A stretch of DNA of 64,000 bases from Flavobacterium sp. UBA6721 (GTDB lineage: Bacteria; Bacteroidota; Bacteroidia; Flavobacteriales; Flavobacteriaceae). Of this stretch, positions 5,293 through 59,115 are shown piece after piece (position 1 is the stretch's first letter; each line of letters starts with the position of its first letter). The notes under the pieces are model-generated. The model ran no database searches, was not told the origin of the DNA, and saw only the letters and a program-made list of their open reading frames with translations. The position numbers and the translations under genes are program-made. Location: contig DKIJ01000035.1 in NCBI GenBank assembly GCA_002454195.1, forward strand, positions 4,715 to 68,714. Direction: 5' to 3'.

Positions 5293-6561
5293 TTATTTGA
5301 ATCTTAAATCCCAAGAAACCGTAAGTGAATAAATCCAAAAATAATTACCTGGGTCAAAACTAATTTCTTGATGTGCCACATCAAATTGTGCACCCCAAGC
5401 ATTTTTATTTTTATTGGTTGTAAAAAAGTAACTTAGATTAAAACGCTGAGTTTGTAAATTTACTATTGCTGTATTGTTAGCATCATTAAATTGGTTTATT
5501 TCTGGCGAAACTCCCATACTGAATAATAAACCGATATAATTATCGGCATTACTGCGGTATTTTCTATAATTTAATGCTGCTGAAGTGCTTGTTCCGCCAT
5601 CACCCGGTGTGAAATAAGGGCGTAATGACCAATAGCTGTTTCCGGTGTACCAACCCAATGAACCAGTGTAAATATTGGTTGTTGAGCTATATTGTAAGTG
5701 TCTGAAACCAGCTGAAAATTCTAAACCATGTGGTAAAGATTTATACAATTCGGCTCCCATTCTGAAATCAGGAAAGATGAAACTATTCGCAAAACCAAAA
5801 TTCAGATAGGCATATAAACCTTTGGTGATTTTTGGGTACATATCTACTTCTGCCTGAACAGCATTTTCATCAAAACGACGGTTTACATTTACCCGGCTAA
5901 TAATACTTCCGTATTTGGTTTGTTTTGTATAACTCAAAGAGTAATATTGCATTGGGTCAAAGGTTTTTGAATACAAGTCAACAGAAGCTCTTAAACCAAT
6001 TGTATTGGTTCGTAAAGAACTATTTAAACCCTCCAGAAAATCAATTGCCCCTTTGTTATCTGGTTGTTTGGTAAGTACTTCTTGAGCAGTACTTTGGGCT
6101 TCCAATGGATTGTTAGTGTTTTTTAAAGCAGCAGCTTTTAATAAGGTGATTTCGGGGTCGTTTGGAAACTTTTTTAATGCTTTTTTTGCCATTTCTAATG
6201 CTTCATAAGGAGCGTCTGCCCATGATTCATTTTTGATAGCTGCAATCCAGTTTTCTTTGTTATCTGGTGCTTTTTGAATAACTTGATCAAATTCTTTTCG
6301 GGCTTTTTTATAATCACCATCCCAAGCGTAAGTCGTGGCTAAGAAAGTACGAATTTCATGGTAATTAGGATATTTTGTCAAAATATTTACCAAGGTGTCT
6401 TGAGCTTGTTTCCTTTGTTGGTTAAAAGCTAATTTGCGAGCCGTTTCAAAAGAGCTATCAGGATCTTCATTGTAAGTGACTTCTTGAGCTTGAGCCGATA
6501 GAGCAAAAGCAAAAGCAAAAGAGAAAACTAAGGTTAATTTTATAATTGATTTTTTTATCAT
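5293..6561 (-). CDS. YaiO-like outer-membrane beta-barrel protein with N-terminal TPR module
   Basis: A 422-residue protein with a signal peptide (MIKKSIIKL...LSAQAQ, cleavage near residue 26). TPR-like helical repeats fill residues about 41-180, then a C-terminal half rich in alternating aromatic/polar strands (YSLSYTKQTKYG, LYAYLNFGFANS, LEFSAGFRHLQYSS) ends in a strand terminating WDLRFK, as expected for a beta-barrel. The order TPR then barrel recalls PgaA-type polysaccharide exporters, though this is the YaiO family. Its start overlaps the stop of the sulfatase gene by one base (TAATG), so translation is probably coupled. Inferred role: passage of a surface glycan through the outer membrane. 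Its TPR module resembles the tail of the neighbouring sulfatase. Confidence 0.82.
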   Translation of the reverse strand: MIKKSIIKLTLVFSFAFAFALSAQAQEVTYNEDPDSSFETARKLAFNQQRKQAQDTLVNILTKYPNYHEIRTFLATTYAWDGDYKKARKEFDQVIQKAPDNKENWIAAIKNESWADAPYEALEMAKKALKKFPNDPEITLLKAAALKNTNNPLEAQSTAQEVLTKQPDNKGAIDFLEGLNSSLRTNTIGLRASVDLYSKTFDPMQYYSLSYTKQTKYGSIISRVNVNRRFDENAVQAEVDMYPKITKGLYAYLNFGFANSFIFPDFRMGAELYKSLPHGLEFSAGFRHLQYSSTTNIYTGSLGWYTGNSYWSLRPYFTPGDGGTSTSAALNYRKYRSNADNYIGLLFSMGVSPEINQFNDANNTAIVNLQTQRFNLSYFFTTNKNKNAWGAQFDVAHQEISFDPGNYFWIYSLTVSWDLRFK

Positions 6562-8987
6562 TATTTTATTTCCTTTTTAAGTTTTAGTATTTCAGAATTG
6601 TTAGGTTGTTTTTTTAGCATACTATCAATGGCTCTTTTTGCCATAGCGATATTATTTGTTCTCTGGTATGCTTTGGCTAATTTAATACCTAATTCTGGAT
6701 TTTTGATTTCATTTTTCAATGCTTTTTTAGCAATTTCTATTCCTTTATTGTCTTGTTCAGACCACCAGTAAATATCCATTAATGCTAAGTAGCTATCATA
6801 ATAGTAAGGGGTTCTTTTTACTACTTCTAATAATTCTTTTTCTGCAGTTTTATAATCTTTATCCCAAGCCAAACTTCTTCCTTTTAAAGTTCTCACATCA
6901 GCATAGTTAGGTAATTCATTTAAAATGTAATTGCATAAAGTACGCGCTTCTTTTCGTTGATTGTTAAAGGCAAAGTCTCTAGCTTTCATGAAAATTTGGT
7001 CATTATTTAAACCTTGAATTTCTTTTTTAATAAAAGCTAATTCTTCTTTTGTGAATTCGTAGTTAGCCTTACTGTAAATCTGTAAATATTTTGGAATGAT
7101 TTTGTTTTTTTGAGTCAAATAAGCGTTCAATTTTTTAGCCTCGAGCATATTCGCTTCAATAGTTTGCATCATTTCACTATCACTAATTTTTTTCGTTTCA
7201 AAGTTTTCGTCAATTTTAAATAATTCACCATTAGAATAAAGATAATCTTTGTAAATTAAATCATTGATAACTCCTTTGTTTTGCATTATTGGAATAGAAT
7301 GAATGTTTCTAAAACGTTTTTCGGTATCTAATCCAGTACTCATCCATGCTGTTTTTTCTATTTTATTCATTTTGTAATTGTTCGTTAAAAATGAAAGTAA
7401 ACTAGGAGTTATATCCCAGTGTGAAGAAACAGATTTGAAAGATTCTGCTTTTTTAAGCATTGGGCTATAGATATACAAAGGCAAGTGAAAACGACATAAT
7501 TTGTCTTTTTGTTCAATAGAGATCAAACGGTGGTCGCCCGTGATTACAAAAATTGTGTTTTTGTAATCTGGTCTTTTAGCATAATTTTCCATGAAAGTTT
7601 GAATCGAATGATCCGTGTATAATAACGAGGCATAAATATCCTTGTAAGTATCAATTTCGGATGCTGAAAGCGATAAATTTTTGTTGGTATTCTTGATATG
7701 CTCCACTTTTCTTAAATATTCTTCTTTTTCAGGAAAGTTAAACGGTTCATGATTAGTCAAAGTCATAATGATATCTAATCGTGGTCCTTTTTTAGTATCC
7801 ATTTCAGAAAGTGTCTTTTTGAAGATTTCAGCATCAGGATATCCCCATGAAAAGCCTTCTTCGTTTTTTTCTGTCATTTTGTAACTTGCGCCAAACTTGT
7901 TAATGTCGACAATATTGTCAATATTGTTGTATTCTAAGAAATTAACACGATGGTCAAAACTTGATTCATCACCGCAATAAAAAGCGGTATTGTAACCGTT
8001 AGATTTTAAAATACTAATCAATGAGCTGTGAGCAGGCAAAGGATTCATTTTTAAGAAACCTTTATTTCCGTAAGGTAATGAACCTAAAATAGAAGGTAAT
8101 GCTCCAAATGTACGACCGGCATTACTCACAAAATTCTCCCAATACAAAGATTTAGGTATCATTGAATCTAAGTAAGGCGTGAATCCTCTATTCGCATTTT
8201 TCCCTATAAATTCATCACCTAAACCTTCCACAATAATCATTACAATATTTGGTTTTTCTTCCTGAATGTTGAAAAAAGGAGCTAAAACGTCAGGTGTAGC
8301 CGATGCAGGTTTTAATAAAGGATATTCTGTTTTGTAGGTTAGATTGGCGATGTCAAATTCTTTTTTGTCTTTTTGAAAACGAATAATTTCATTGGTAAGA
8401 AAAGCCAGTTTGTTTTGATAAGCTGTTTCTGTAGCTTGCGGTAGGAAAGATTTGATTGCGATACAAACTACTGTAAAAGCGCCTGTGAAAATCAATAATT
8501 TTTTAGAATCGATAGCATTCGAAACATATTTGTTTATTCCCCAAAATAGTACCGGGAAAAGAATAAAAGGGACAAAGTAGAGAATAGAGAATTTTTCGGA
8601 AGCAGTTACCGTGATGTACATGTCCTCTACCGAATAACCTAAAAAGTCGGCGCCAAGATTGACTAATGTCGTAAGGTGGTATTTGGTAAGGGCAAATTGT
8701 CCGATAATGATTAGGGTAAAAAGAATTTTTATCGGAAGTTCAGCTAGATTTTCTTTAGCCTTATTCAAAATCCAATACAAAGGAAAAACAATCAGACTAA
8801 TGATTAAAACAGTCCAAAAATCATTGATTAATTTGAAAAATAGTGTAGACAGAATATTGTCGATTTCAATTCCTGTATAGGTTTTTGCAACTACTTCAAA
8901 CAGACTCATTAGGCTAAATACAATCAGTAATGCAAGGCACAAGAAGCCGTAACTAAAACGGTTTTTTAGTTGTTGATTATTCTCCAT
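6561..8987 (-). CDS. LTA-synthase-like sulfatase with C-terminal TPR module
   Basis: An 808-residue inner-membrane enzyme with five predicted N-terminal membrane segments (about 13-33, 55-76, 87-106, 133-153, 163-181). An alkaline-phosphatase-superfamily domain of the LtaS/sulfatase type follows. Candidate catalytic and metal residues are E254 (IIVEGLGDEF), the nucleophile T293 (GRTFGALPS), H413 (TNHEPF) and D485-H486 (ITGDHR). Known LtaS/OpgB/EptA relatives move phosphoglycerol or phosphoethanolamine groups to glycans or lipids on the outer face of the membrane. Residues 669-808 form a TPR module unusual for this family and similar to the YaiO-like neighbour. Inferred role: modification of the polymer made by the adjacent glycosyltransferase. 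Confidence 0.85.
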   Translation of the reverse strand: MENNQQLKNRFSYGFLCLALLIVFSLMSLFEVVAKTYTGIEIDNILSTLFFKLINDFWTVLIISLIVFPLYWILNKAKENLAELPIKILFTLIIIGQFALTKYHLTTLVNLGADFLGYSVEDMYITVTASEKFSILYFVPFILFPVLFWGINKYVSNAIDSKKLLIFTGAFTVVCIAIKSFLPQATETAYQNKLAFLTNEIIRFQKDKKEFDIANLTYKTEYPLLKPASATPDVLAPFFNIQEEKPNIVMIIVEGLGDEFIGKNANRGFTPYLDSMIPKSLYWENFVSNAGRTFGALPSILGSLPYGNKGFLKMNPLPAHSSLISILKSNGYNTAFYCGDESSFDHRVNFLEYNNIDNIVDINKFGASYKMTEKNEEGFSWGYPDAEIFKKTLSEMDTKKGPRLDIIMTLTNHEPFNFPEKEEYLRKVEHIKNTNKNLSLSASEIDTYKDIYASLLYTDHSIQTFMENYAKRPDYKNTIFVITGDHRLISIEQKDKLCRFHLPLYIYSPMLKKAESFKSVSSHWDITPSLLSFLTNNYKMNKIEKTAWMSTGLDTEKRFRNIHSIPIMQNKGVINDLIYKDYLYSNGELFKIDENFETKKISDSEMMQTIEANMLEAKKLNAYLTQKNKIIPKYLQIYSKANYEFTKEELAFIKKEIQGLNNDQIFMKARDFAFNNQRKEARTLCNYILNELPNYADVRTLKGRSLAWDKDYKTAEKELLEVVKRTPYYYDSYLALMDIYWWSEQDNKGIEIAKKALKNEIKNPELGIKLAKAYQRTNNIAMAKRAIDSMLKKQPNNSEILKLKKEIK

Positions 8988-9017
8988 CGAAAAATAAAAT
9001 TGGTTAGTTTAATACAA

Positions 9018-10442
9018 TTAATTGCTACTCATTCCTTTGCGGGTCATTTCGCCCCACTTGATTTTTTTATTAAAATAGTAGTCAAAGTTGCCTTTTATAG
9101 CAGCATATAAAATAACCGGGTGATTGAGTATAGGCTCAGTAAATGCGGTTTTTATAAGTTGCCATCCCATTCCTTTTTTTGAATATTGATGGTAAGTAAG
9201 CTCTTCAGTAATAATTGTAATAATTGAAAAAAGCACATTAAAAAGGTAAGCCAATACAAGAAAGGAAATAGCGTAAATCCAAACTACAAAACCATTAAAA
9301 ATAAGAATTAAGAAGTAAATTAACCCCAGTATTTCCATAATTGGAGCTATTCTTTCAAACAAAAACCAATAAGGGTAACTAATCATTCCTAAGGCTTTGT
9401 ATTCCGGATTAAATCCAATTTTTTTATGTTTTTTAAGTGTTTCAATAGTCCCTCGGGTCCATCTGTTTCTTTGAGAGATAAATATTTTATGACTGTCAGG
9501 GGCTTCCGTCCAGCATAAAGGATCAGGGATATAAGCTACTCTGTATTTTACTTTTTTCTCTTCCATATGGCGTCTCATTCTTACAATGATTTCCATATCT
9601 TCTCCTACAGTTTTAGTATCATAGCCTCCCACTTCTAATGCTATTTTTTTATCAAATAGACCAAAAGCACCAGAAATAACCAGTAATCCATTGAGTTTGC
9701 TCCATGCCATTCGGCCTAAAAGAAAAGCTCTTAAATATTCTAAAATTTGGGCTTTTACGATACTGCTTTTAGGTAAGTTAATATCCAGTAATTTGCCGTC
9801 TTTTATTTTACAGGAATTGGCTATTCTAATTACTCCACCAGCAGCAATTACTTTCTCATCGGTAGATTCTAAAAATGGTTTTATCATTTTTTGTAATGAA
9901 TCTTCCAAAAGTAAGCAATCTACATCAATGCAAGCTACATATTTATTAGTACTTATGTTTAATCCAAAATTTAAAGCGTCGGCTTTTCCACCATTTTCTT
10001 TGTCTACCACAATTAATTTCTCGAATGCAGGATTAGTCGATTTGAAAACTCCATTTCTGAGCGGTTTTGTTGGCAATTGATTGTTAATTAGGTAGTCTAC
10101 TTTTACTAAGTCATAAGCAGCAATTAATTTTTCTAAACTATCATCTTTACTACCATCATTGACAATGATTACATCATAATTTACATAGTGATTTGAAAGC
10201 AGTGAGCGTACATTTTCTACAATATTCAAACTTTCGTTGTATGCCGGAGCAATTATCGAAATAGAAGGTGAAATGGAAGAAGAAAGTATTTCAGTATAGT
10301 TTACAAAACTATTTTTTTTCATATAATTTACTGTTTCAAAGGCAGAAATTATCGCCAAAATAATATAGGATGCTACTGCTGCAATTGCAAAACTAAAGAA
10401 TATAAAATCAAGAAAATCGATGGTGAAATTTGATAGGTTCAT
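9018..10442 (-). CDS. Processive family 2 glycosyltransferase, membrane-bound
   Basis: A 474-residue GT2 enzyme with one N-terminal membrane segment (about 12-35) and C-terminal segments from about residue 360. GT-A motifs: PAYNES (66-71), VNDGSKDDS (94-102), the DVD metal site (173-175), ED (281-282) and QRNRWTRG (324-331, the QxxRW signature of processive synthases such as PgaC, hyaluronan and cellulose synthase). It most likely polymerises an N-acetylhexosamine or other sugar and extrudes it across the inner membrane; the sugar cannot be told from the sequence. It is 2 bases after the HEAT gene and 30 bases before the sulfatase gene. Confidence 0.88.
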   Translation of the reverse strand: MNLSNFTIDFLDFIFFSFAIAAVASYIILAIISAFETVNYMKKNSFVNYTEILSSSISPSISIIAPAYNESLNIVENVRSLLSNHYVNYDVIIVNDGSKDDSLEKLIAAYDLVKVDYLINNQLPTKPLRNGVFKSTNPAFEKLIVVDKENGGKADALNFGLNISTNKYVACIDVDCLLLEDSLQKMIKPFLESTDEKVIAAGGVIRIANSCKIKDGKLLDINLPKSSIVKAQILEYLRAFLLGRMAWSKLNGLLVISGAFGLFDKKIALEVGGYDTKTVGEDMEIIVRMRRHMEEKKVKYRVAYIPDPLCWTEAPDSHKIFISQRNRWTRGTIETLKKHKKIGFNPEYKALGMISYPYWFLFERIAPIMEILGLIYFLILIFNGFVVWIYAISFLVLAYLFNVLFSIITIITEELTYHQYSKKGMGWQLIKTAFTEPILNHPVILYAAIKGNFDYYFNKKIKWGEMTRKGMSSN

Positions 10443-10444
10443 GA

Positions 10445-11548
10445 TTAACTAGCTTTGATTAAGTTGGTTTCAATTGGGTACTCTTCGGCAATGCTGTTGA
10501 TTACAAATGTATTATCATCGTCAACAGTAATTAAATTCATGATTTTCATTACTGAAATTCGGATGTAGAAATTCTCATGATTTATGTGTTCTTTAACAAA
10601 TTCAATGTCATCCGGCATAGACATTTCTTCCATCATTTTAAAGAATGCAATTTGTTCGTCAAGAGTTCTTTTAAAAATATCTGTTTTTAAGATTTCTACA
10701 GCCTCGAAAATCCCTAAAGGATTCACCAGGTTGATAGCCTCAATTCTAATTTCTTCATTAGGATGATTAAAAAGGGCTATGATTTCTTCATTTACACCAA
10801 ATTGATTATGAATTCGAACCAGTTTTAAAGTGAAGGATACGACTGAAGTGTTTTTTGATCGGAGCCATCCACTCATGTCAGGAACATGAAGGTTGTTGAA
10901 TTTGTTCAAAATCTCTAATAGTTGAATTTGATCCCATTCTGAAAGGTCATTTTCAATAACATTCAAAAATTCAAGTCCATCAAAGCGAAATAACTGTACC
11001 AAATATTTTTGAATCTCAAAACGCACTTGTTTTTTGGGATGATTGACTAATTTGATAATTTCATCGTGTGTTTCTTTGATTTCAAATTGGGTTAATTCTC
11101 TAATTGCTTTGGCTACAACATCCCATTTTTTACTTTTTAATTTTGAAGTAGCAGATTCAATTAATCCTGTTTGGCGATATAATTTTTGTATTGCATCGGC
11201 AGTTTCTCCTGTAACATCATTTTTTAGTTTTAAAAAAGTGCTGATGATAATTTTTCTTTTCAATCGGTTTTGAGCACATTTTTTTAAATAAACAACTATC
11301 TTTTGTTGTTGTTCATTTTCCGTTTCATCGTCACTAGCATATAAGTATTCGATTAGATCCGATTCGTATTTTTTTTCATACGTGGATTCCATTCGCTTTT
11401 TTATTTTCAATCGGTCTCTTAAATTTTTCAAATAGACCAATAAAAAGAATATTATGACAGCAAAAAACATTGATATGTAAATACACATTTTGATAATAAT
11501 GTGCATGCTACTTACGGAGTCTAGACTATTTTGGAAAAACTCTAACAT
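10445..11548 (-). CDS. Membrane-anchored HEAT-repeat protein
   Basis: A 367-residue protein with one membrane segment (about 18-41), a charged linker, then repeated helical pairs of HEAT type (for example IRELTQFEIKETHDEIIKLV, VSFTLKLVRIHNQFGVNEEI, IRIEAINLVNPLGIFEAVEI) through to the C-terminus. HEAT solenoids bind proteins, and no catalytic motif is visible. It lies between a receiver-only response regulator and a processive glycosyltransferase in one operon. A signalling adaptor or a glycosyltransferase co-polymerase-like partner is plausible (inference). Confidence 0.75.
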   Translation of the reverse strand: MLEFFQNSLDSVSSMHIIIKMCIYISMFFAVIIFFLLVYLKNLRDRLKIKKRMESTYEKKYESDLIEYLYASDDETENEQQQKIVVYLKKCAQNRLKRKIIISTFLKLKNDVTGETADAIQKLYRQTGLIESATSKLKSKKWDVVAKAIRELTQFEIKETHDEIIKLVNHPKKQVRFEIQKYLVQLFRFDGLEFLNVIENDLSEWDQIQLLEILNKFNNLHVPDMSGWLRSKNTSVVSFTLKLVRIHNQFGVNEEIIALFNHPNEEIRIEAINLVNPLGIFEAVEILKTDIFKRTLDEQIAFFKMMEEMSMPDDIEFVKEHINHENFYIRISVMKIMNLITVDDDNTFVINSIAEEYPIETNLIKAS

Positions 11549-11568
11549 GAAAGTTGTAATTTTTAGGT

Positions 11569-11936
11569 TTATTGTAATAGTCTTTTAATACGAATAATTA
11601 ATTCGTTTGGACTAAAAGGTTTGCTCATAAAGTCGGTTGCACCTAAATTGAAAGCATTCAAAACCATTTCTTCCTGACCTTCAGAAGAAAATACAACTAT
11701 GGGAGTTTTTCTGTCGAGTTTGTTTCTAACGTGACTTATTACCTCTAATCCGCTTATGAAAGGCATCATAATATCGGTTAGAATCATATCAGGATCATTG
11801 TCTTCAATCAAATCAACGGCTTCTTTACCATTGTTTGCTATTAAGAGTTGAAACCTTCTTTCTCTAATTTAAATTGTAATAATTTAGAAAGAATAGAATT
11901 ATCCTCGGCTAAAACAATTTTTTTTGTAAGATTCAT
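11569..11936 (-). pseudogene. Receiver-only response regulator, frameshifted
   Basis: The 5' part (start at 11936) encodes MNLTKKIVLAEDNSILSKLL...EKEGF and then runs into a stop. The rest, in another frame, encodes QLLIANNGKEAVDLIEDNDPDM, the phospho-acceptor region LTDIMMPF, VVFSSEG and SKPFSPNEL, ending at 11569. Joined together they form a single CheY-like receiver of about 122 residues with the acidic pair, acceptor Asp and conserved Lys present. One base is missing near 11849-11853 relative to an intact receiver. It may be a real mutation, a sequencing error or, less likely, programmed frameshifting. It is the first gene of the glycosyltransferase/sulfatase operon, 20 bases before the HEAT gene. 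A near-consensus -7 box (TACTTTTA) lies at 11982-11989. Confidence 0.82.
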
Positions 11937-17578: not shown

Positions 17579-17681
17579 AAGCTGTTTCCCGCTATCCGTT
17601 TCAATCTTGTGTCGGCGTAGATGCCTGCCGCCACAAGGATTTCCACTTCTATCGGGGCTAGAGCCTCCGCTAGCAGCTAAA
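17579..17681. repeat. Structured intergenic repeat, copy A
   Basis: This lies between serC and serA. It holds the flank CCCGCTATCCGTTTCAATC, a hairpin CTTGTG-t-CGGC / GCCG-c-CACAAG (17606-17637), the flank GGATTTCCACTTCTATCGGG, and a small GCTAG...CTAGC palindrome. The flanks match, in reverse complement, those of the element at 40079-40206, while the hairpin sequence differs, which suggests a conserved fold. Probably a multicopy flavobacterial element. Confidence 0.7.
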
Positions 17682-39827: not shown

Positions 39828-40078
39828 ATTTTATATTGTTTCGTCGGAGTTCGTTTAAATTAAGCAGAACTCACATATATGTATGTTAAAATCATATAAA
39901 GCCACCCAATTATAGATAGATATTTATGATTACTGTTATACTTTATATTTATCAAATATATAAACAATTCACTACAAAAATCAATAATACTTAATATTAG
40001 TTGCGAAATTTTCGTACTAAGTGAAGTATGAATTAAGAGAGTTTCATTTTTAAAAATGAATTTGTCGGGAGTAGGCTT

Positions 40079-40206
40079 TGCGTGAGGGATGGAAGTGGCA
40101 TCCTTTGTGGCTTTTCTTTAAAGCCACAAAGATATAACGGACAGCCCGACCTCGTTGCATAACGAAAGTTGCTTTTTTGTACTAAGGTTGTGCAACGAGG
40201 GCACGC
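40079..40206. repeat. Structured multi-hairpin element, copy B (candidate RNA)
   Basis: Outer helix GCGTG (40079-40083) / CACGC (40202-40206); inner 12-bp hairpin CTTTGTGGCTTT / AAAGCCACAAAG; a second 10-bp pairing CCTCGTTGCA (40150-40159) / TGCAACGAGG (40191-40200). Conserved-looking single-stranded blocks (GAGGGATGGAAGTGGCATC, AACGGACAGCCCGAC) separate them. Three nested pairings in about 130 bases suggest a folded RNA or a mobile palindromic element. The flanks match copy A at 17579-17681 in opposite orientation. Confidence 0.72.
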
Positions 40207-52044: not shown

Positions 52045-52169
52045 AGACTATTCTTGTAAAAAGTTGGAATGCTTTCGTTATTTGTTTAAAGTGAAAGTTG
52101 TTTCGATTTAAATTCTAATATAGCATACAAAAATCAGTGTTTTTCATCGATATAAGTGGTTGAAATATG

Positions 52170-52198
52170 TTGATTTAAAAGGATATAGAGTATATTTG
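52170..52198 (+). promoter_or_regulatory. Promoter of the SprB-like adhesin gene
   Basis: TTG at 52170-52172, 18 bases, then TATATTTG at 52191-52198. It lies inside an upstream in-frame extension (from a TTG at 52160), which therefore is not translated from this promoter; this supports the ATG at 52241 as the true start. Confidence 0.75.
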
Positions 52199-52240
52199 TG
52201 GACTTTGATATTTTACCCCAAGAAATATAAAGAAAGCTTT

Positions 52241-55200
52241 ATGAAACAACGCTACACGATTATTTTATTTTGGATTTTATTTGCTTCTGTAAATACTATT
52301 AATGCTGGAAATAAAATCCCTTTTTTAAATCCCTTTTATAATTCAGCTTGCAATAAAGCTACTGCTTTGGCTACTCCGACTGCAACAATTGGAGGGACAA
52401 CAACTGTTTGTCAGGGAAACACAAGTACGTTAGTTACTTTTAAAGGAAGTGGCGGAACAGCTCCCTATACTTTTACTTATAAATTGAATGGTGGAACATT
52501 ACAAACAATTACTACTTCGGGAGGGAGTGATTCTGTAACTTTAACGGTTGATACTTCTGTAGCAGGAACGTTTAAATATGATTTATTTAGCGTACATGAT
52601 GATACTTTACCTGTTAATGATGTAACGGTAACTGGTTCAGCTACAATAACAGTGAATCCACAGCCAAATGCTTCATTGGGAGGTACAGGTTCTGGAACAA
52701 CCTTTAATGGTTTGCCTGCTTTTAGGAGTTGTAGTAATTCTAACTTATTATTTACTTTTACAAATACATCAACTACAAGTTCAACTTTAAATACGACTTA
52801 TACTATTGATTGGGGAGATGGAAGTCCAGCTTTTACATCAGCTACTTCTTGGACTTCTACAACTCATACTTTTGGAGTGGGATATTGGAATTTGACTTAT
52901 ACAATAGAAAGTACAAATGGTTGTCCGGTAACAAAAAAGTATGTTGTTTTTGTTGGGTCTAATCCTGCTGTTTCTTTGGGAAATCCCGGAAATACTGATA
53001 TTTGTAATTCAGAACAATTAACATTTCCAATTACGGGAACAGAGAATAATCCCTCTGGAACAACCTATACCATTTCATTCAATGATGGGTCGCCTTCGGT
53101 AACTTATAATCACCCTCCGCCTGCAAGTATTTCTCATGCTTTTTTAAAATCGTCATGTGGTGTTACGAGTTCAGATGGTACAAATTCTTATCCTAATTCA
53201 TTTCGGGCAAATATTGTCGCTCAGAACCCTTGTGGTACTTCGGCAGTGGGTGTAGTTCCAATTTATGTTTCAACTCCACCTGTAGCTGACTTTACAATTC
53301 CTACTAGTGGTTGTGTTAATACTAATATTTGTGTTACAAACACGACTACAGGAGCTTTTGAAAATAATGGTAATGTTTGTGATTCTAGTCCAAAATTTGT
53401 TTGGACAATTACTCCATCAACTGGTTATAGCGTTGTTAGTGGTTCAATTGGAAATGATTTTGGAAGTACAGATCCTAATTTATGGTTGTCGGGTTCTAGT
53501 CCTTTATGTATAAAGTTTTCACAAGCAGGGACATATACTATAACAATTAAAACAGCGAATAGATGTGGTCCAGTCGTAACAAAACAACAACAAATTTGTA
53601 TTGAACCAGCTTTAGTTCCTCAATTCACTTTGAGCAATACTTCTGGATGTACGCCTTTGGCAATTACAACAACCAATACAACGGTAGAAACCAATTCCTG
53701 TACAACACCTACTTATTTATGGACAGTTACTTATGCAGCAGCTAATTGTGGTACAACAGCAACAATTGCCAGTCAGAGTACTAAAAATGCTTCGTATAAT
53801 TTTACTGTTCCGGGTATTTATACCATCAAACTGACAGCTACTAATTCTTGTGGAAGCGTTAATACAACCCAAACAGTTGAAGTTAAAAAGCCACCAACAG
53901 CTACTATTGCTGCCATTCCGAACAGTTGTGGGACAGCAACAATCAATCCAACAGCAACGATTACAAGTTGTGCGCCGGCTTCCAGTACACTAACTTATGC
54001 CTGGAGTTTTCTGGGAGGAACGCCTGCTACAGCTAATACCGCAAATCCGGGAACAATCACTTATAGTACAACAGGGAATTATACAGTGTCTTTAATTGTT
54101 ACTAACGAATGTGGTGCTTCGGCAACTGCTACTCAAAATTTTACAGTCAGTAAAACCCCGACAATAACCAATACCGATTTAAGTCAGACGATATGTTCTG
54201 GTACATCATCAACGGCTATTAATTTGACCTCAGATGATGCTACAACTACGTATAGTTGGACGGTAACTGCTACATCCGATATTTCAGGTTTTGCACCATC
54301 AGGATCAGGAACTGTTATTCCTGCAAAAGTGATAAACACGACAAGTACTTCAGCAGGAACGGTCACTTATATAGTAACTCCTAAAATTGGTAGTTGTTCG
54401 GGGACAGCGGTTAATTTTGTAATTAACGTAAATCCAGCACCTGTATTTACGACGCAACCCGTTTCAAGTACCGTTTGTCAAGGGGGAACAGCTAGCCAGT
54501 TGGCAGTTGCTGTAAATGCTAGTAGCGGAACGCCATCGTATCAATGGTATTCTAATACTTCTAATTCTACAGTAGGAGGGACATTAATTTCTGGTGAAAC
54601 CAATACAACATATAATCCTCCAACCACTACAATTGGAACGGTTTATTATTATAATGTAGTGACCTTATCTTCCGGAGGATGTTCTAATTTGACTTCGAAT
54701 ATAGCGTCGGTAGCGGTGACTGCACAACCGACCATTTCACAACCATTAGCTACTCAAACGATTTGTACAGGTTCGACTATCGCTATAGCGTTATCGGTGA
54801 CTCCTTCGGGAGGAACAGGAACAGCTACGTATCAATGGTATTCGAATACAACTAATTCTAATTCAGGCGGTACAATAATTTCAGGGGCGATAAATAATAA
54901 TTACACTCCTCCTGTTTATACCATTGCAGGTGATTACTATTACTATGTTGTTGTGAATTCTGGTGGTAGTGGTTGTGGTTCGGTAACCAGTAATGTGGCT
55001 CAAGTAACTGTTTTAACTCCACCTACAATAACAACACAACCAATGGCCAGTCAGGTTTTGTGTCAGGGTGAAACTGCAACAGCATTAAATGTTGCAGGTT
55101 CAGGAGGTAATGGTGCTTTTTCTTATCAATGGTATCAGAATAATGTTAATAATACAACATCGGGTACAGCTATTGGCGGTGCCACAAGTGCCACATATAT

Positions 55201-58105
55201 GCCATTAACAACTACTGCGGGTACGTTATATTATTATTGTGTGTTGACGCAAACAGGAGCAGGATGTTCTGTAAAAAGTGCTGTGGCATCAGTACAGGTA
55301 AGTGTTTCACCAACGATTTCTGTTCAACCTACACCTAGTACAGTTTGTTTGGGCGGCACCCCTACAACTTTGTCTTTTACGATAAGTAATGGAGTTGGAA
55401 TACCTACTTATCAATGGTATTCTAATACTAGCAATTTGAATACAGGAGGAACTATTATAGTAGGACAAACAAATGCTACTTATGCTCCGTCAGCAGCAGC
55501 TACAGGAACAACCTATTATTATTGTGTAATTACTTTTCCTTCTTTGGCAGGTGCTTGTGGTGTTGTTACTACCAATGCAACAGCGGTTGTAGTAAATCCA
55601 AAACCAAGTATTGCTGCTGAAAGTGCCATTATTTGTAGTTCTAATACATTTGTAGTTACTCCTGCTGCTTCCGGTTCTAATATTATTCCAACAGGGACTA
55701 CTTATACCTGGACAATCCCTTCGATTAGTCCTGCAGGGACAATTACAGGGGCCAGTGCTCAATCAAATTCACAAACAAATATTAGCCAAACATTAATAAA
55801 TACTTCTATAAATCCTTCGGTTGTGACCTATACGGTTACTCCAACATCAGGGACTTGCGTAGGAAATACTTTTACTGTTGCCGTGACGGTAAATCCGGCA
55901 ATTAATGCCAATGTAGTGATTAATGATAATAAATGTTTTGGGACCAATACCGCTTCTATTTCGACTAATATTACAGGAGGAATTCCTTTTTCGTCAGGTG
56001 CTCCGTATACAATTTCCTGGACAGGTCCTAATGGTTTTAGTTCGTCAGCAACTTCAATTTCAAACTTGCAACCTGGGAGCTATAATTTAAGCATAACCGA
56101 TAATGGGAATTGTCCTTTTTTCAAAACCTATACTATTACTGAACCAACTGACATTGCAATTGCTGTAATTAGTAAAAAAGACATCAGTTGTTTAGGCAGT
56201 GCGAATGGTAGCGTTGATATTAGTGTAACAGGAGGAACAGGAAATTATACTTATGCTTGGACGAAAAACGGCGCTCCATTTGCCAATACTCAGGATATTT
56301 CCAATTTAGGCCCGGGTAATTATGTTGTTTCGGTTAGCGATGCCAATAATTGTGGTCCTAAAACCGCTTCTTATACTATTATTGAACCACCGCTTTTAGT
56401 GGTTAGTTTAAATGATAAAAAGGATGTCGTTTGTTATGGTGATGCGACAGGAAGTATTACGGTTGATGTTAGCGGAGGTGTAGCTGCTGGTTCGGGTTAT
56501 AATTTTGCATGGACAGGACCTAATGGTTTTACGAGTTCAACTCAAAATTTAACCAATATAGTTGCCGGAACTTATAATTTAATAGTGACCGACAGTCAGG
56601 CCTGTTCGAAAAATCTATCGGTGACCATCACACAATCTGCTGAAATAAAAGTTACTTATAGTACCACTCCCATTTTATGTTATGGGGCTAATAATGCTTC
56701 GATTACAGCTACTATTTCAGGCGGAATTCCGCCTTATCAATATACCTGGAGTAATTTGGCAACGACTTTAAACCAGACAAATTTATCTGCAGGTGATTAT
56801 ACTATTTTGGTAACCGATAATGCAGGATGTAAAAAGTCCCAAACTATTACTATTCCTGATGCGCCCATTTTTACGGTTAATCCGGTAAAAAAAGACATCA
56901 GCTGTTTTGGTGCTCATGACGGAAGTATCGCTTTGAATTTGGTTGGAGGAAAAGCACCGATTACTTTAGTCTGGAGTGACGGCAGTACTTCGGGATTAAC
57001 CAGAAATAATTTGGGAGCAGGTACTTATACCGCTACCATTTCTGACGGGACACCTTGCCAAATTGTTCGAACATTTGTCATTCAGGAACCGCAAGCTTTA
57101 GTGCTTTCAGCGAATGTTAGCCACGCATTGGATTGTGATAACGCGAATAGTGGAGCTATTAATCTTTTAGTTTCAGGAGGGACGGCTCCGTTTACTTATT
57201 CATGGTCAAATGGTGTATCAACCGAAGATTTAAACAATGTGCCAGCCGGAAATTATTTGGTAACTGTAACCGATGCAAGAGGTTGTGTAAAAACAGCTCA
57301 GTATTCGATAAATAGACCACCGCCGATTGTTATTGGTGTTACTACAAAAACGGATGTGAATTGTGATACCAAAGAGGTAAAACAAAACTTTACAGCTCAG
57401 GTTTCAGGAGGCCTTCCTCCATACCAATTAAGCTGGTCTAGTGGTGCTGTAAGCGGAGCCAATAATGAAATGATGAGTACCAACCAAAACGGAACTATTG
57501 TATTAAATGTTACGGATGCTTTAGGCTGTAAAGCCAATTATAGTTTTAATGTAGCTATTCCGAAATTAGGAAGTCCTTCGTTTACGACTAATTCTTATGG
57601 TTTTACTACTTATGGTTTTTATTCTATCGAAGACCCAGTCCAATTTACCAATACAGCAACAGATGGTTTTATTGCTGTTTCATGGGATTTTGGTGACGGT
57701 TCTTTGTCAGATGAAATTAATCCTGTTCATGTTTTCAAAAAAGAAGGAAGCTATATTATCAATCAAAGAGTGACTTATCCTTTGGGATGTGCTTATAATT
57801 ATACGCTAAAACTGGAAATTAAAAAAGGATATAATTTAATGTATCCTAATGCTTTTACGCCTAATAAAGATGGTTTCAATGATTATTTTTCGCCGGTTTT
57901 TAAGGGTCTGACAACTATTGTATTTGATGTTTATGATACCTGGGGAGGATTGATTTATTCTGAAACAGGTGAAACGATTAAAGGCTGGGATGGAATGATA
58001 AAAAATCAGGAGGCTGAAAACGGAAATTATTATTTCAAAGTGACAGCCAAAACATTTTACGGAGCAATTATAAAAGACCAGGGTGCATTTGTACTTATAA
58101 AATAA
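52241..58105 (+). CDS. Giant SprB-like adhesin with T9SS type B C-terminal domain
   Basis: A 1954-residue surface protein. The start is taken at 52241 (signal MKQRYTIILFWILFASVNTINA). N-terminal Ig/PKD-like domains (about 25-740) carry IDWGDGSP and many Cys; four Ig-like repeats of about 95-98 residues share YQWYSN (DNA at about 54539, 54830, 55124, 55409). Then about seven SprB-type repeats run from about 55917 to 57580 (KKDISC-GxxxGS, GGxxPxxYxWS). A PKD domain (SWDFGDGS) and the gliding-motility-associated C-terminal domain (YPNAFTPNKDGFNDYFSP...GNYYFKVTA) end it. Known SprB adhesins are exported by T9SS and drive gliding and surface binding. It overlaps the SprF-like gene by one base. Confidence 0.9.
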   Translation: MKQRYTIILFWILFASVNTINAGNKIPFLNPFYNSACNKATALATPTATIGGTTTVCQGNTSTLVTFKGSGGTAPYTFTYKLNGGTLQTITTSGGSDSVTLTVDTSVAGTFKYDLFSVHDDTLPVNDVTVTGSATITVNPQPNASLGGTGSGTTFNGLPAFRSCSNSNLLFTFTNTSTTSSTLNTTYTIDWGDGSPAFTSATSWTSTTHTFGVGYWNLTYTIESTNGCPVTKKYVVFVGSNPAVSLGNPGNTDICNSEQLTFPITGTENNPSGTTYTISFNDGSPSVTYNHPPPASISHAFLKSSCGVTSSDGTNSYPNSFRANIVAQNPCGTSAVGVVPIYVSTPPVADFTIPTSGCVNTNICVTNTTTGAFENNGNVCDSSPKFVWTITPSTGYSVVSGSIGNDFGSTDPNLWLSGSSPLCIKFSQAGTYTITIKTANRCGPVVTKQQQICIEPALVPQFTLSNTSGCTPLAITTTNTTVETNSCTTPTYLWTVTYAAANCGTTATIASQSTKNASYNFTVPGIYTIKLTATNSCGSVNTTQTVEVKKPPTATIAAIPNSCGTATINPTATITSCAPASSTLTYAWSFLGGTPATANTANPGTITYSTTGNYTVSLIVTNECGASATATQNFTVSKTPTITNTDLSQTICSGTSSTAINLTSDDATTTYSWTVTATSDISGFAPSGSGTVIPAKVINTTSTSAGTVTYIVTPKIGSCSGTAVNFVINVNPAPVFTTQPVSSTVCQGGTASQLAVAVNASSGTPSYQWYSNTSNSTVGGTLISGETNTTYNPPTTTIGTVYYYNVVTLSSGGCSNLTSNIASVAVTAQPTISQPLATQTICTGSTIAIALSVTPSGGTGTATYQWYSNTTNSNSGGTIISGAINNNYTPPVYTIAGDYYYYVVVNSGGSGCGSVTSNVAQVTVLTPPTITTQPMASQVLCQGETATALNVAGSGGNGAFSYQWYQNNVNNTTSGTAIGGATSATYMPLTTTAGTLYYYCVLTQTGAGCSVKSAVASVQVSVSPTISVQPTPSTVCLGGTPTTLSFTISNGVGIPTYQWYSNTSNLNTGGTIIVGQTNATYAPSAAATGTTYYYCVITFPSLAGACGVVTTNATAVVVNPKPSIAAESAIICSSNTFVVTPAASGSNIIPTGTTYTWTIPSISPAGTITGASAQSNSQTNISQTLINTSINPSVVTYTVTPTSGTCVGNTFTVAVTVNPAINANVVINDNKCFGTNTASISTNITGGIPFSSGAPYTISWTGPNGFSSSATSISNLQPGSYNLSITDNGNCPFFKTYTITEPTDIAIAVISKKDISCLGSANGSVDISVTGGTGNYTYAWTKNGAPFANTQDISNLGPGNYVVSVSDANNCGPKTASYTIIEPPLLVVSLNDKKDVVCYGDATGSITVDVSGGVAAGSGYNFAWTGPNGFTSSTQNLTNIVAGTYNLIVTDSQACSKNLSVTITQSAEIKVTYSTTPILCYGANNASITATISGGIPPYQYTWSNLATTLNQTNLSAGDYTILVTDNAGCKKSQTITIPDAPIFTVNPVKKDISCFGAHDGSIALNLVGGKAPITLVWSDGSTSGLTRNNLGAGTYTATISDGTPCQIVRTFVIQEPQALVLSANVSHALDCDNANSGAINLLVSGGTAPFTYSWSNGVSTEDLNNVPAGNYLVTVTDARGCVKTAQYSINRPPPIVIGVTTKTDVNCDTKEVKQNFTAQVSGGLPPYQLSWSSGAVSGANNEMMSTNQNGTIVLNVTDALGCKANYSFNVAIPKLGSPSFTTNSYGFTTYGFYSIEDPVQFTNTATDGFIAVSWDFGDGSLSDEINPVHVFKKEGSYIINQRVTYPLGCAYNYTLKLEIKKGYNLMYPNAFTPNKDGFNDYFSPVFKGLTTIVFDVYDTWGGLIYSETGETIKGWDGMIKNQEAENGNYYFKVTAKTFYGAIIKDQGAFVLIK

Positions 58106-59115
58106 TGAGAATGAAATTTAAAATACTATTTACAATTTGTACTTGTTTCTTTTTTACTGTTGTAAAAGCACAAGATCCCATTTTTACACAATATTTCATT
58201 GTTCCCACAACATTAAATCCTGCTTATTCCGGTTTTCAGGAAACTACTTCTGCGGGTATCATTCATCGCTCCCAATGGCCTGATTTAGATTTAAAAATTG
58301 ATACCGATTATGCTTTTCTCAATACCTGGAGTGAGAATATGAAAAGTGGTATAGGAGGGAGTGTTTTAAGTCATAGAGAGAATAATACACATTATAATTT
58401 TACTCAGTTAAATCTTAATTATGCTTACAAAGTAACTTTAAATGACAGATGGAGTTTTAGACCGGCAATAGAAGTTGGTTTTGGAACAAAATCTTTCGGA
58501 TTCAAAAATTTGATTTTAGGAGATCAGATTAATATTGATTCAGGAACTATTAATCCAATATCTAATGATCCTTCCAATTTTCATGATAAATTTACTTTTT
58601 TTGATTTTTCAGCCGGATTGTTATTTAGCAGTGATGAAGCTTGGATTGGTTTGTCATTAAAGCACATTAATAAACCCAATATTTCATTGGTAGATGAAAA
58701 AAATCTTCCTCTGAATATGTTCTTTTCGGCAAGTGTGGGTTATGAATTTTTGGTGGCCGATTATTTGGATGTGATTAGTTTTCCTTATGAAACGAAGTTT
58801 ATGGTATCAGCCAATTATATGAATCAGGGTCAATTTAATCGATTGGATTTAGGCTCTTCCATTATGTTCAGAACGCTTTTTTTAGGAGTATCTACTGCTA
58901 TGAATCCTTTGGCAAAAGCTCAGGATAGTCATTTGGTGACTTCAGTTAATTTTTACGGAGGTTTGCAATATGAAAATTTAAAATTTGGTATTTCTCATGA
59001 TTTTACCACTTCCAAAATGGGAAAAACCGGTGGAATTTATGAGTTGTCTTTAACCTATCAATTTGATTTTGGAGTAAAATGTTTTGGCTGCCCAAATTAT
59101 GAAAGTAAGTATTAA
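58105..59115 (+). CDS. PorP/SprF-family T9SS outer-membrane protein
   Basis: A 336-residue protein with signal MRMKFKILFTICTCFFFTVVKA, then QDPIFTQYFIVPTTLNPAYSG, the hallmark N-terminus of the PorP/SprF family, and a barrel of repeated aromatic strands (FTFFDFSAGLLFSSDEAWIGLSLKH). In Flavobacterium johnsoniae, SprF is needed for SprB to reach the surface, and paralogues are each paired with an adhesin. The start codon overlaps the adhesin stop (TAATGA), so the pair is cotranslated. Confidence 0.93.
   Translation: MRMKFKILFTICTCFFFTVVKAQDPIFTQYFIVPTTLNPAYSGFQETTSAGIIHRSQWPDLDLKIDTDYAFLNTWSENMKSGIGGSVLSHRENNTHYNFTQLNLNYAYKVTLNDRWSFRPAIEVGFGTKSFGFKNLILGDQINIDSGTINPISNDPSNFHDKFTFFDFSAGLLFSSDEAWIGLSLKHINKPNISLVDEKNLPLNMFFSASVGYEFLVADYLDVISFPYETKFMVSANYMNQGQFNRLDLGSSIMFRTLFLGVSTAMNPLAKAQDSHLVTSVNFYGGLQYENLKFGISHDFTTSKMGKTGGIYELSLTYQFDFGVKCFGCPNYESKY

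Follow-up and report, generated by a model that had tools for sequence, protein, structure and literature searches.

The five-gene locus

Five genes lie on the minus strand of a 64,000-nucleotide stretch of Flavobacterium sp. UBA6721 (contig DKIJ01000035.1 of assembly GCA_002454195.1), hereafter the window. Transcribed leftwards from 11936 to 5293, they encode in turn a receiver, a HEAT-repeat protein, a family 2 glycosyltransferase (GT2), an LtaS-like protein and a YaiO-family protein. The set is probably an operon, conserved in Bacteroidota, that directs the synthase-dependent production of a surface polysaccharide and likely works, by analogy, in the manner of phosphoethanolamine (pEtN)-cellulose. 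The first four genes are separated by 20, 2 and 30 bases, and the LtaS-like and YaiO genes overlap through TAATG. An earlier reading of the window from its letters (the sequence-only reading) had given the same five genes, strand and place, with gaps of 30 bases or less and TAATG coupling, and all of this was confirmed. The source is a metagenome-assembled genome, 74% complete, and the window GT2 shares 97% identity with its Flavobacterium glycines counterpart.

The first gene (11569..11936) encodes a CheY-like single-domain receiver whose frame is broken in this assembly; the assignment is based on a Pfam Response_reg match (1.1e-18) to the 80-residue downstream piece and on unbroken copies in relatives. 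It is followed by a 367-residue HEAT-repeat protein with one predicted transmembrane helix (10445..11548; HEAT_2, 1.1e-6) and by a PgaC-like GT2 of 474 residues (9018..10442; Glycos_transf_2, 7e-22), in which the QxxRW motif reads QRNRW (residues 324-328, 9459..9473). The fourth gene (6561..8987) encodes an LtaS/OpgB-like phosphotransferase of 808 residues, with five predicted transmembrane helices, a sulfatase-fold catalytic domain (7389..8252; Sulfatase, 9e-32) and a C-terminal tail of tetratricopeptide repeats (TPRs; 6561..7016), for which Pfam also reports TPR. The last (5293..6561; YaiO, 5e-65, plus TPR) encodes a YaiO-family outer-membrane protein composed of an N-terminal hydrophobic helix resembling a signal peptide, a TPR solenoid and a predicted beta-barrel (residues 186-421, 5299..6006).

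Conservation of the unit

The sequence-only reading had staked itself on this gene order being kept across Bacteroidota. The search was run and the unit proved conserved: the exact order receiver-HEAT-GT2-LtaS-YaiO was found in 61 of the best 80 named loci. These were the best of at least 548 relatives by LtaS similarity, so the sample is biased to the kin of the window (Flavobacterium, Lutibacter, Polaribacter, Maribacter, Tenacibaculum, Flavivirga and others). One further locus has the same order with GT2 and LtaS fused, four have the fusion with the receiver elsewhere, three are cut by contig ends and 11 deviate. Among the last, L190, L222 and L238 are likewise truncated at contig ends, L220 and L223 begin with LtaS-YaiO and continue with kinase, receiver and HEAT, and in five (L209, L213, L214, L219 and L225) the GT2 is not beside LtaS. 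A GT2 of the family lies elsewhere in the genomes of L213, L214 and L225; a search of the genome of L209 found none. In the remaining one, L224 (Polaribacter), the LtaS-like gene is split into three open reading frames (ORFs) and the rest of the unit is in order. Since the unit also turns up in other genera, where the ORFs around it differ, its arrangement is not due to chance.

A broader survey used the GT2 profile at E<=1e-60 across 392 Bacteroidota genomes of 178 genera. It reported 110 matches (counted from the list) in 99 genomes and 53 genera. Surroundings were covered for 85 of the 110 (the window, three loci and 81 matches in 80 stretches; the remaining 25 were left out). Survey loci and nearer relatives together made a GT2-anchored set of 100 loci with 102 GT2 genes, in which a HEAT gene is recognised immediately upstream in 90, a single-domain receiver lies within 8 kb in 90, YaiO in 77 and LtaS in 37; L122 has no row in the neighbourhood table. 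The HEAT misses are mostly remote members, where the HEAT profile may be too weak. The LtaS profile matched 40 of the 392 genomes, every one of them also GT2-positive (hypergeometric 1e-27, kinship ignored), and 38 of the 42 LtaS copies have a GT2 no more than 8 kb away. Pooled counts here and below are of sequences, not species, and some genomes occur twice (e.g. L031 and L163).

Fusion and co-variation of GT2 and LtaS

Eighteen loci (16 non-redundant) have GT2 and LtaS joined in a single ORF, which runs to about 1134-1296 residues and may or may not include the TPR tail. A FastTree phylogeny of the GT2, in which some branches are long, shows at least six changes between the fused and the separate state, counted without regard to direction. 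Such repeated fusion ties GT2 and LtaS to one path more strongly than adjacency does.

Co-variation was assessed by correlating pairwise distances in 97 four-gene loci, reduced to 49 non-redundant ones, loci with two GT2 or two LtaS genes being dropped. Correlations were 0.94 for GT2-HEAT, 0.90 for LtaS-YaiO and 0.71-0.78 for the other four pairs. Every pair exceeded all 2000 permutations, and shared ancestry raises all the values; it is the contrast between the two high pairs and the rest that points to one module of synthase and HEAT protein and another of LtaS and YaiO.

The glycosyltransferase

Of 179 aligned GT2 sequences, 175 retain the D, DxD, ED and QxxRW motifs unaltered, the four exceptions being L162, which is cut by a contig end, and the remote members L151, L154 and L155. 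With these motifs and flanking transmembrane helices the window protein has the predicted features of a processive GT2. Against E. coli K-12 yardsticks the profile scored PgaC at 3e-30, YaiP at 1e-9 and BcsA at 7e-6, and did not report OpgH. Membership of the PgaC/IcaA poly-N-acetylglucosamine (PNAG) synthases was rejected (TIGR03937, 126.1 bits against a cut-off of 422.3).

The LtaS-like protein

Residues E254, T293 (T or S), H413, D485 and H486 align with the LtaS active-site columns, which we take to be the catalytic T and the metal-binding E, D-H and H; the set is intact in the window protein and in 111 of 116 aligned sequences. In the other five (L114, L115, L120, L121 and L123) catalytic residues are lost. 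Does the protein then act mainly as a scaffold, its membrane part and TPR tail coupling synthase and YaiO, with head-group transfer secondary or lost? The five degenerate loci, which retain the protein, its place and its tail, would fit this, as would the way tail presence tracks YaiO adjacency: YaiO follows immediately, in the same orientation, in 97 of 98 loci with a tailed LtaS and in none of 15 with a tail-less one (a count that drops LtaS loci without a recognised YaiO and ignores kinship). We nevertheless think it unlikely, given that the great majority keep E, T/S, H, D and H, tail-less fused forms included. The five degenerate loci also have enlarged HEAT proteins (635-859 residues); the branch with enlarged HEAT proteins holds all five, and its other members are intact.

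Tail and YaiO TPRs share 40% identity over 136 residues. Gene conversion between the tail and the YaiO of the same locus found no support, own-locus pairs being no closer than others, and the resemblance thus looks like an old duplication.

To which phosphotransferases is the enzyme closest? Its profile matches E. coli OpgB (8e-11) and does not report the pEtN transferase BcsG at E<=10 with filters off, so that BcsG membership was rejected; PRK12363, phosphoglycerol transferase I, matches at 2.4e-8. These matches would suit a periplasmic glucan system of the OpgH/OpgB kind, in which the glycan made by the GT2 is retained in the periplasm or envelope and YaiO serves some other function. We regard this as improbable: the GT2 profile points to PgaC, YaiP and BcsA instead of OpgH, OpgG is not among the five products, YaiO co-varies with LtaS, and the best match of the YaiO model is an exporter, BcsC (see below). 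Family similarity to LtaS itself raises the possibility of a glycolipid or teichoic-acid-like polymer, LtaS polymerising glycerol-phosphate on an anchor made by the GT2. This seems less probable still, as the protein scores 47.7 bits against a cut-off of 970 for the lipoteichoic acid synthase equivalog (NF053595), in which membership was accordingly rejected, and has D in place of a W of LtaS that is presumably a substrate-pocket residue.

The lipid supply bears on the same alternative and on the donor. An OpgB/LtaS relative would be expected to use phosphatidylglycerol, and kinship to OpgB suggests this donor. PgsA, however, exceeded its curated cut-off in none of 11 genomes (that of the window, G000, and ten relatives), weak evidence since only 6 of 14 controls passed; phosphatidylglycerol may thus be missing, which would also disfavour a teichoic-acid-like product. 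Phosphatidylserine decarboxylase is present in 10 of the 11, and with the PgsA result this gives the opposite hint, a slight one, that the donor may be phosphatidylethanolamine. Other CDP-alcohol phosphotransferases occur in the surveyed genomes, and one in G005 resembles PssA, below the PssA cut-off.

The predicted YaiO exporter

The window protein belongs to the YaiO family by both models applied (TIGR04390, 186.7 against 32 bits; PF19413, 219.3 against 23.9). Its AlphaFold2 model (65 alignment rows), with a mean predicted local distance difference test score (pLDDT) of 94.3, comprises a TPR solenoid and a barrel whose strands, counted from the listed elements, number 14. In a Foldseek search of the PDB, BcsC occupied ranks 1 and 2 (2.8e-10 and 4.3e-10), followed by a PelBC chain (2.7e-7) and by the polysaccharide secretin 4y25 (3.5e-7), which we take to be PgaA. 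Template-modelling scores over the YaiO model were 0.35-0.53, and the relationship to BcsC is, as far as the model goes, one of shared plan and not of close kinship. Among the E. coli yardsticks the YaiO profile scored BcsC at 2e-12 and PgaA at 6e-4, and a related YaiO of 941 residues has many TPRs, as in BcsC.

The receiver, the HEAT protein and their possible part in control

The sequence-only reading had called the response regulator frameshifted, correctly: the break falls about one quarter into the gene, the first ~31 codons and the rest being in different frames. Unbroken receivers of 119-145 residues stand at the same position in six unit-bearing loci of the genus and in the 61 complete-order LtaS-anchored loci, so the break looks private to this assembly. 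It may be a true mutation or an assembly error.

Hydropathy and flanking charge place the transmembrane helix of the HEAT protein at residues 22-40 and the remainder in the cytoplasm, and its profile matches alphaRep/HEAT scaffolds in the PDB.

Control by cyclic di-GMP (c-di-GMP), through PilZ or another receptor, is common although not universal in synthase-dependent exopolysaccharide secretion. In 60 genomes (that of the window and relatives, some incomplete), PilZ was found in none and GGDEF in one, positive controls being detected; other c-di-GMP receptors were not searched for. What, then, might feed the receiver? In a Lutibacter locus (L168) a PAS-HisKA-HATPase-REC hybrid kinase lies immediately ahead of it, and two further hybrid-kinase ORFs (L038 and L114) were confirmed with Pfam. 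Large receiver-bearing ORFs occupy the kinase position in other loci, labelled by receiver match and length only.

A distant genome has, about where the receiver stands elsewhere and ahead of the GT2, a protein with two REC domains and one GGDEF (L149:5167-6954). One ORF lies between it and the GT2, and the HEAT profile did not call this ORF.

A model for the operon

The operon is best read as a c-di-GMP-independent variant of synthase-dependent exopolysaccharide secretion. As predicted from sequences and models, it combines in one locus the synthase, periplasmic TPRs and outer-membrane exporter that characterize such secretion. The GT2 would make and extrude a glycan, predicted to be PNAG-like or otherwise simple; at the outer face of the inner membrane the LtaS-like enzyme would move a phospholipid head group onto it, glycerol-phosphate and phosphoethanolamine being the candidates; and the YaiO TPR-barrel would export the product. 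Because the LtaS tail and YaiO carry paralogous TPRs, the two would form the ends of a periplasmic bridge. The HEAT protein may serve as an adaptor bound to the synthase. The hybrid kinase, which is in the operon in several genera, would feed the receiver, whose phosphorylated form would switch synthesis through HEAT. Receiver and HEAT protein would in this way replace c-di-GMP control.

A scheme of synthase, phosphotransferase and exporter had been put forward in the sequence-only reading. The GT2-LtaS fusions, the structural match to BcsC and the yardstick scores speak for it; its decoration step does not extend to the whole family.

Several observations weigh against such a machine. Five LtaS-like sequences have lost catalytic residues with the operon retained, and in the GT2-anchored set no LtaS lies within 8 kb of 65 of the 102 GT2 genes; decoration is thus not general. 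On the exporter side, Foldseek ranks 3 and 4 hardly beat ordinary porins (3.7e-7 at rank 5), so BcsC alone stands clear. In VIA alignments of the barrel the matches listed were FadL-like channels, CymA, OmpG, a single BAM chain and TPR proteins, with BcsC and PgaA absent among them. The barrel has 14 strands against the 16 of BcsC (PMC11379886), and the YaiO profile scores E. coli YaiO at only E=2, both proteins passing the Pfam YaiO cut-off. Tail and YaiO TPRs of the same locus are not especially alike (median rank 40 of 98), and the PgsA result, weak as it is, puts the expected donor in doubt. A model of a fused GT2-LtaS protein (L043, 15 alignment rows) is poor (pLDDT 67; predicted template-modelling score, pTM, 0.42), too weak for placing the two domains, and was set aside. 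Finally, the putative contact between receiver and HEAT is read from the order of the genes, and the window copy of the receiver has its frame broken.

Comparison with known systems

E. coli type II cellulose (BcsA/BcsG/BcsC) likewise has a GT2 synthase, an adjoining head-group transferase and a TPR-plus-barrel exporter. There BcsA positions BcsG through the nascent chain, and the BcsC TPRs are thought to guide the chain to the pore (PMC11379886). The present operon differs in that its five products lack BcsB, its transferase is LtaS/OpgB-like and not BcsG-like and can be fused to the synthase, no PilZ was found in the 60 genomes, receiver and HEAT genes stand in its place, and the barrel has fewer strands. 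With no BcsB, no PilZ found and a different transferase, it is not a member of the pEtN-cellulose system.

PgaABCD resembles the operon in its synthase (PgaC being the nearest E. coli yardstick), its TPR-barrel exporter and a one-helix partner gene beside the synthase; by this analogy the HEAT protein perhaps has the role of PgaD. Among the five products, however, there is no deacetylase, a phosphotransferase is present, and the PgaC model is below its cut-off. E. coli yaiS and yaiP-yaiX-yaiO also place a GT2, a modifier and a YaiO barrel in a row; there the modifiers are an acyltransferase pseudogene and a PIG-L deacetylase, the row has no receiver or HEAT gene, and E. coli YaiO, unlike the window protein, has no TPR match. 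The periplasmic glucan system shares a GT2 and an OpgB-type transferase, which here are linked or fused and accompanied by an outer-membrane barrel, and OpgH is not reported by the GT2 profile. The sequence-only reading knew of no described system with this set. Literature searches, with most subscription papers beyond reach, brought up no paper that we recognised as treating it. The statement nevertheless calls for a reservation: the plan itself is already that of pEtN-cellulose (PMC11379886), and yaiP-yaiX-yaiO is already a row of GT2, acyltransferase pseudogene and YaiO.

Modified exopolysaccharides with a c-di-GMP switch are known mostly from Proteobacteria. For Bacteroidota, the operon provides a path to a phosphorus-bearing matrix glycan that can be put to the test, and it hints at a two-component system as an alternative to c-di-GMP in bacteria in which searches for PilZ and GGDEF mostly came back empty. 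Through the repeated fusions, the coupling of chain synthesis and decoration becomes testable on one polypeptide. More tentatively, the operon may define a class of exopolysaccharide machine where a phosphorylated single-domain receiver docks on a HEAT adaptor and so gates the synthase directly, in place of c-di-GMP. In such a machine the head-group transferase would be part of the synthase itself, as in the recurrent natural GT2-LtaS fusions, and would reach the exporter via an exporter-derived TPR arm.

Related cassettes and other features of the window

At L104, L106, L108-L110, L128 and L141 there is a sister cassette in which HEAT-GT2-YaiO precedes an ORF of 732-744 residues; the ORF is DUF4838 in both members tried (L104 and L141). 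Sister cassette and five-gene unit are both present at L081, L178, L181, L216 and L221. In Flavobacterium the sister cassette is bordered by ORFs that resemble those flanking the operon of the window, and in some cases it and the five-gene unit are arranged in tandem. A family of ~390-residue proteins is found near the GT2, mostly with LtaS as well, at L096, L098, L100, L112, L118, L124, L126, L131, L133 and L148. They have a hydrophobic N-terminal stretch, judged by eye, and the two or three members tried had no Pfam or NCBIfam match.

The neighbouring ORFs on either side seem unrelated to the operon. Judged by eye, one flank has a DEAD-box helicase; the other has a small ORF that matched nothing in Pfam, followed by a conserved protein and by an ABC ATPase. 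A lactonase lying further out was identified with Pfam. The window has 55 promoter-like sites against 34.8 (standard deviation 5.8) in shuffles, scattered across genes on both strands, and 6 terminator-like sites against 3.5; none of either kind marks the operon ends. A PHROGs search gave weak GT2 matches and nothing else. Elsewhere in the window, 52160-59115 encodes a 1981-residue SprB-repeat/PKD protein with a type IX C-terminal signal, followed by PorP/SprF, and two Flavo-1 RNAs lie at 17581-17663 and 40075-40155.

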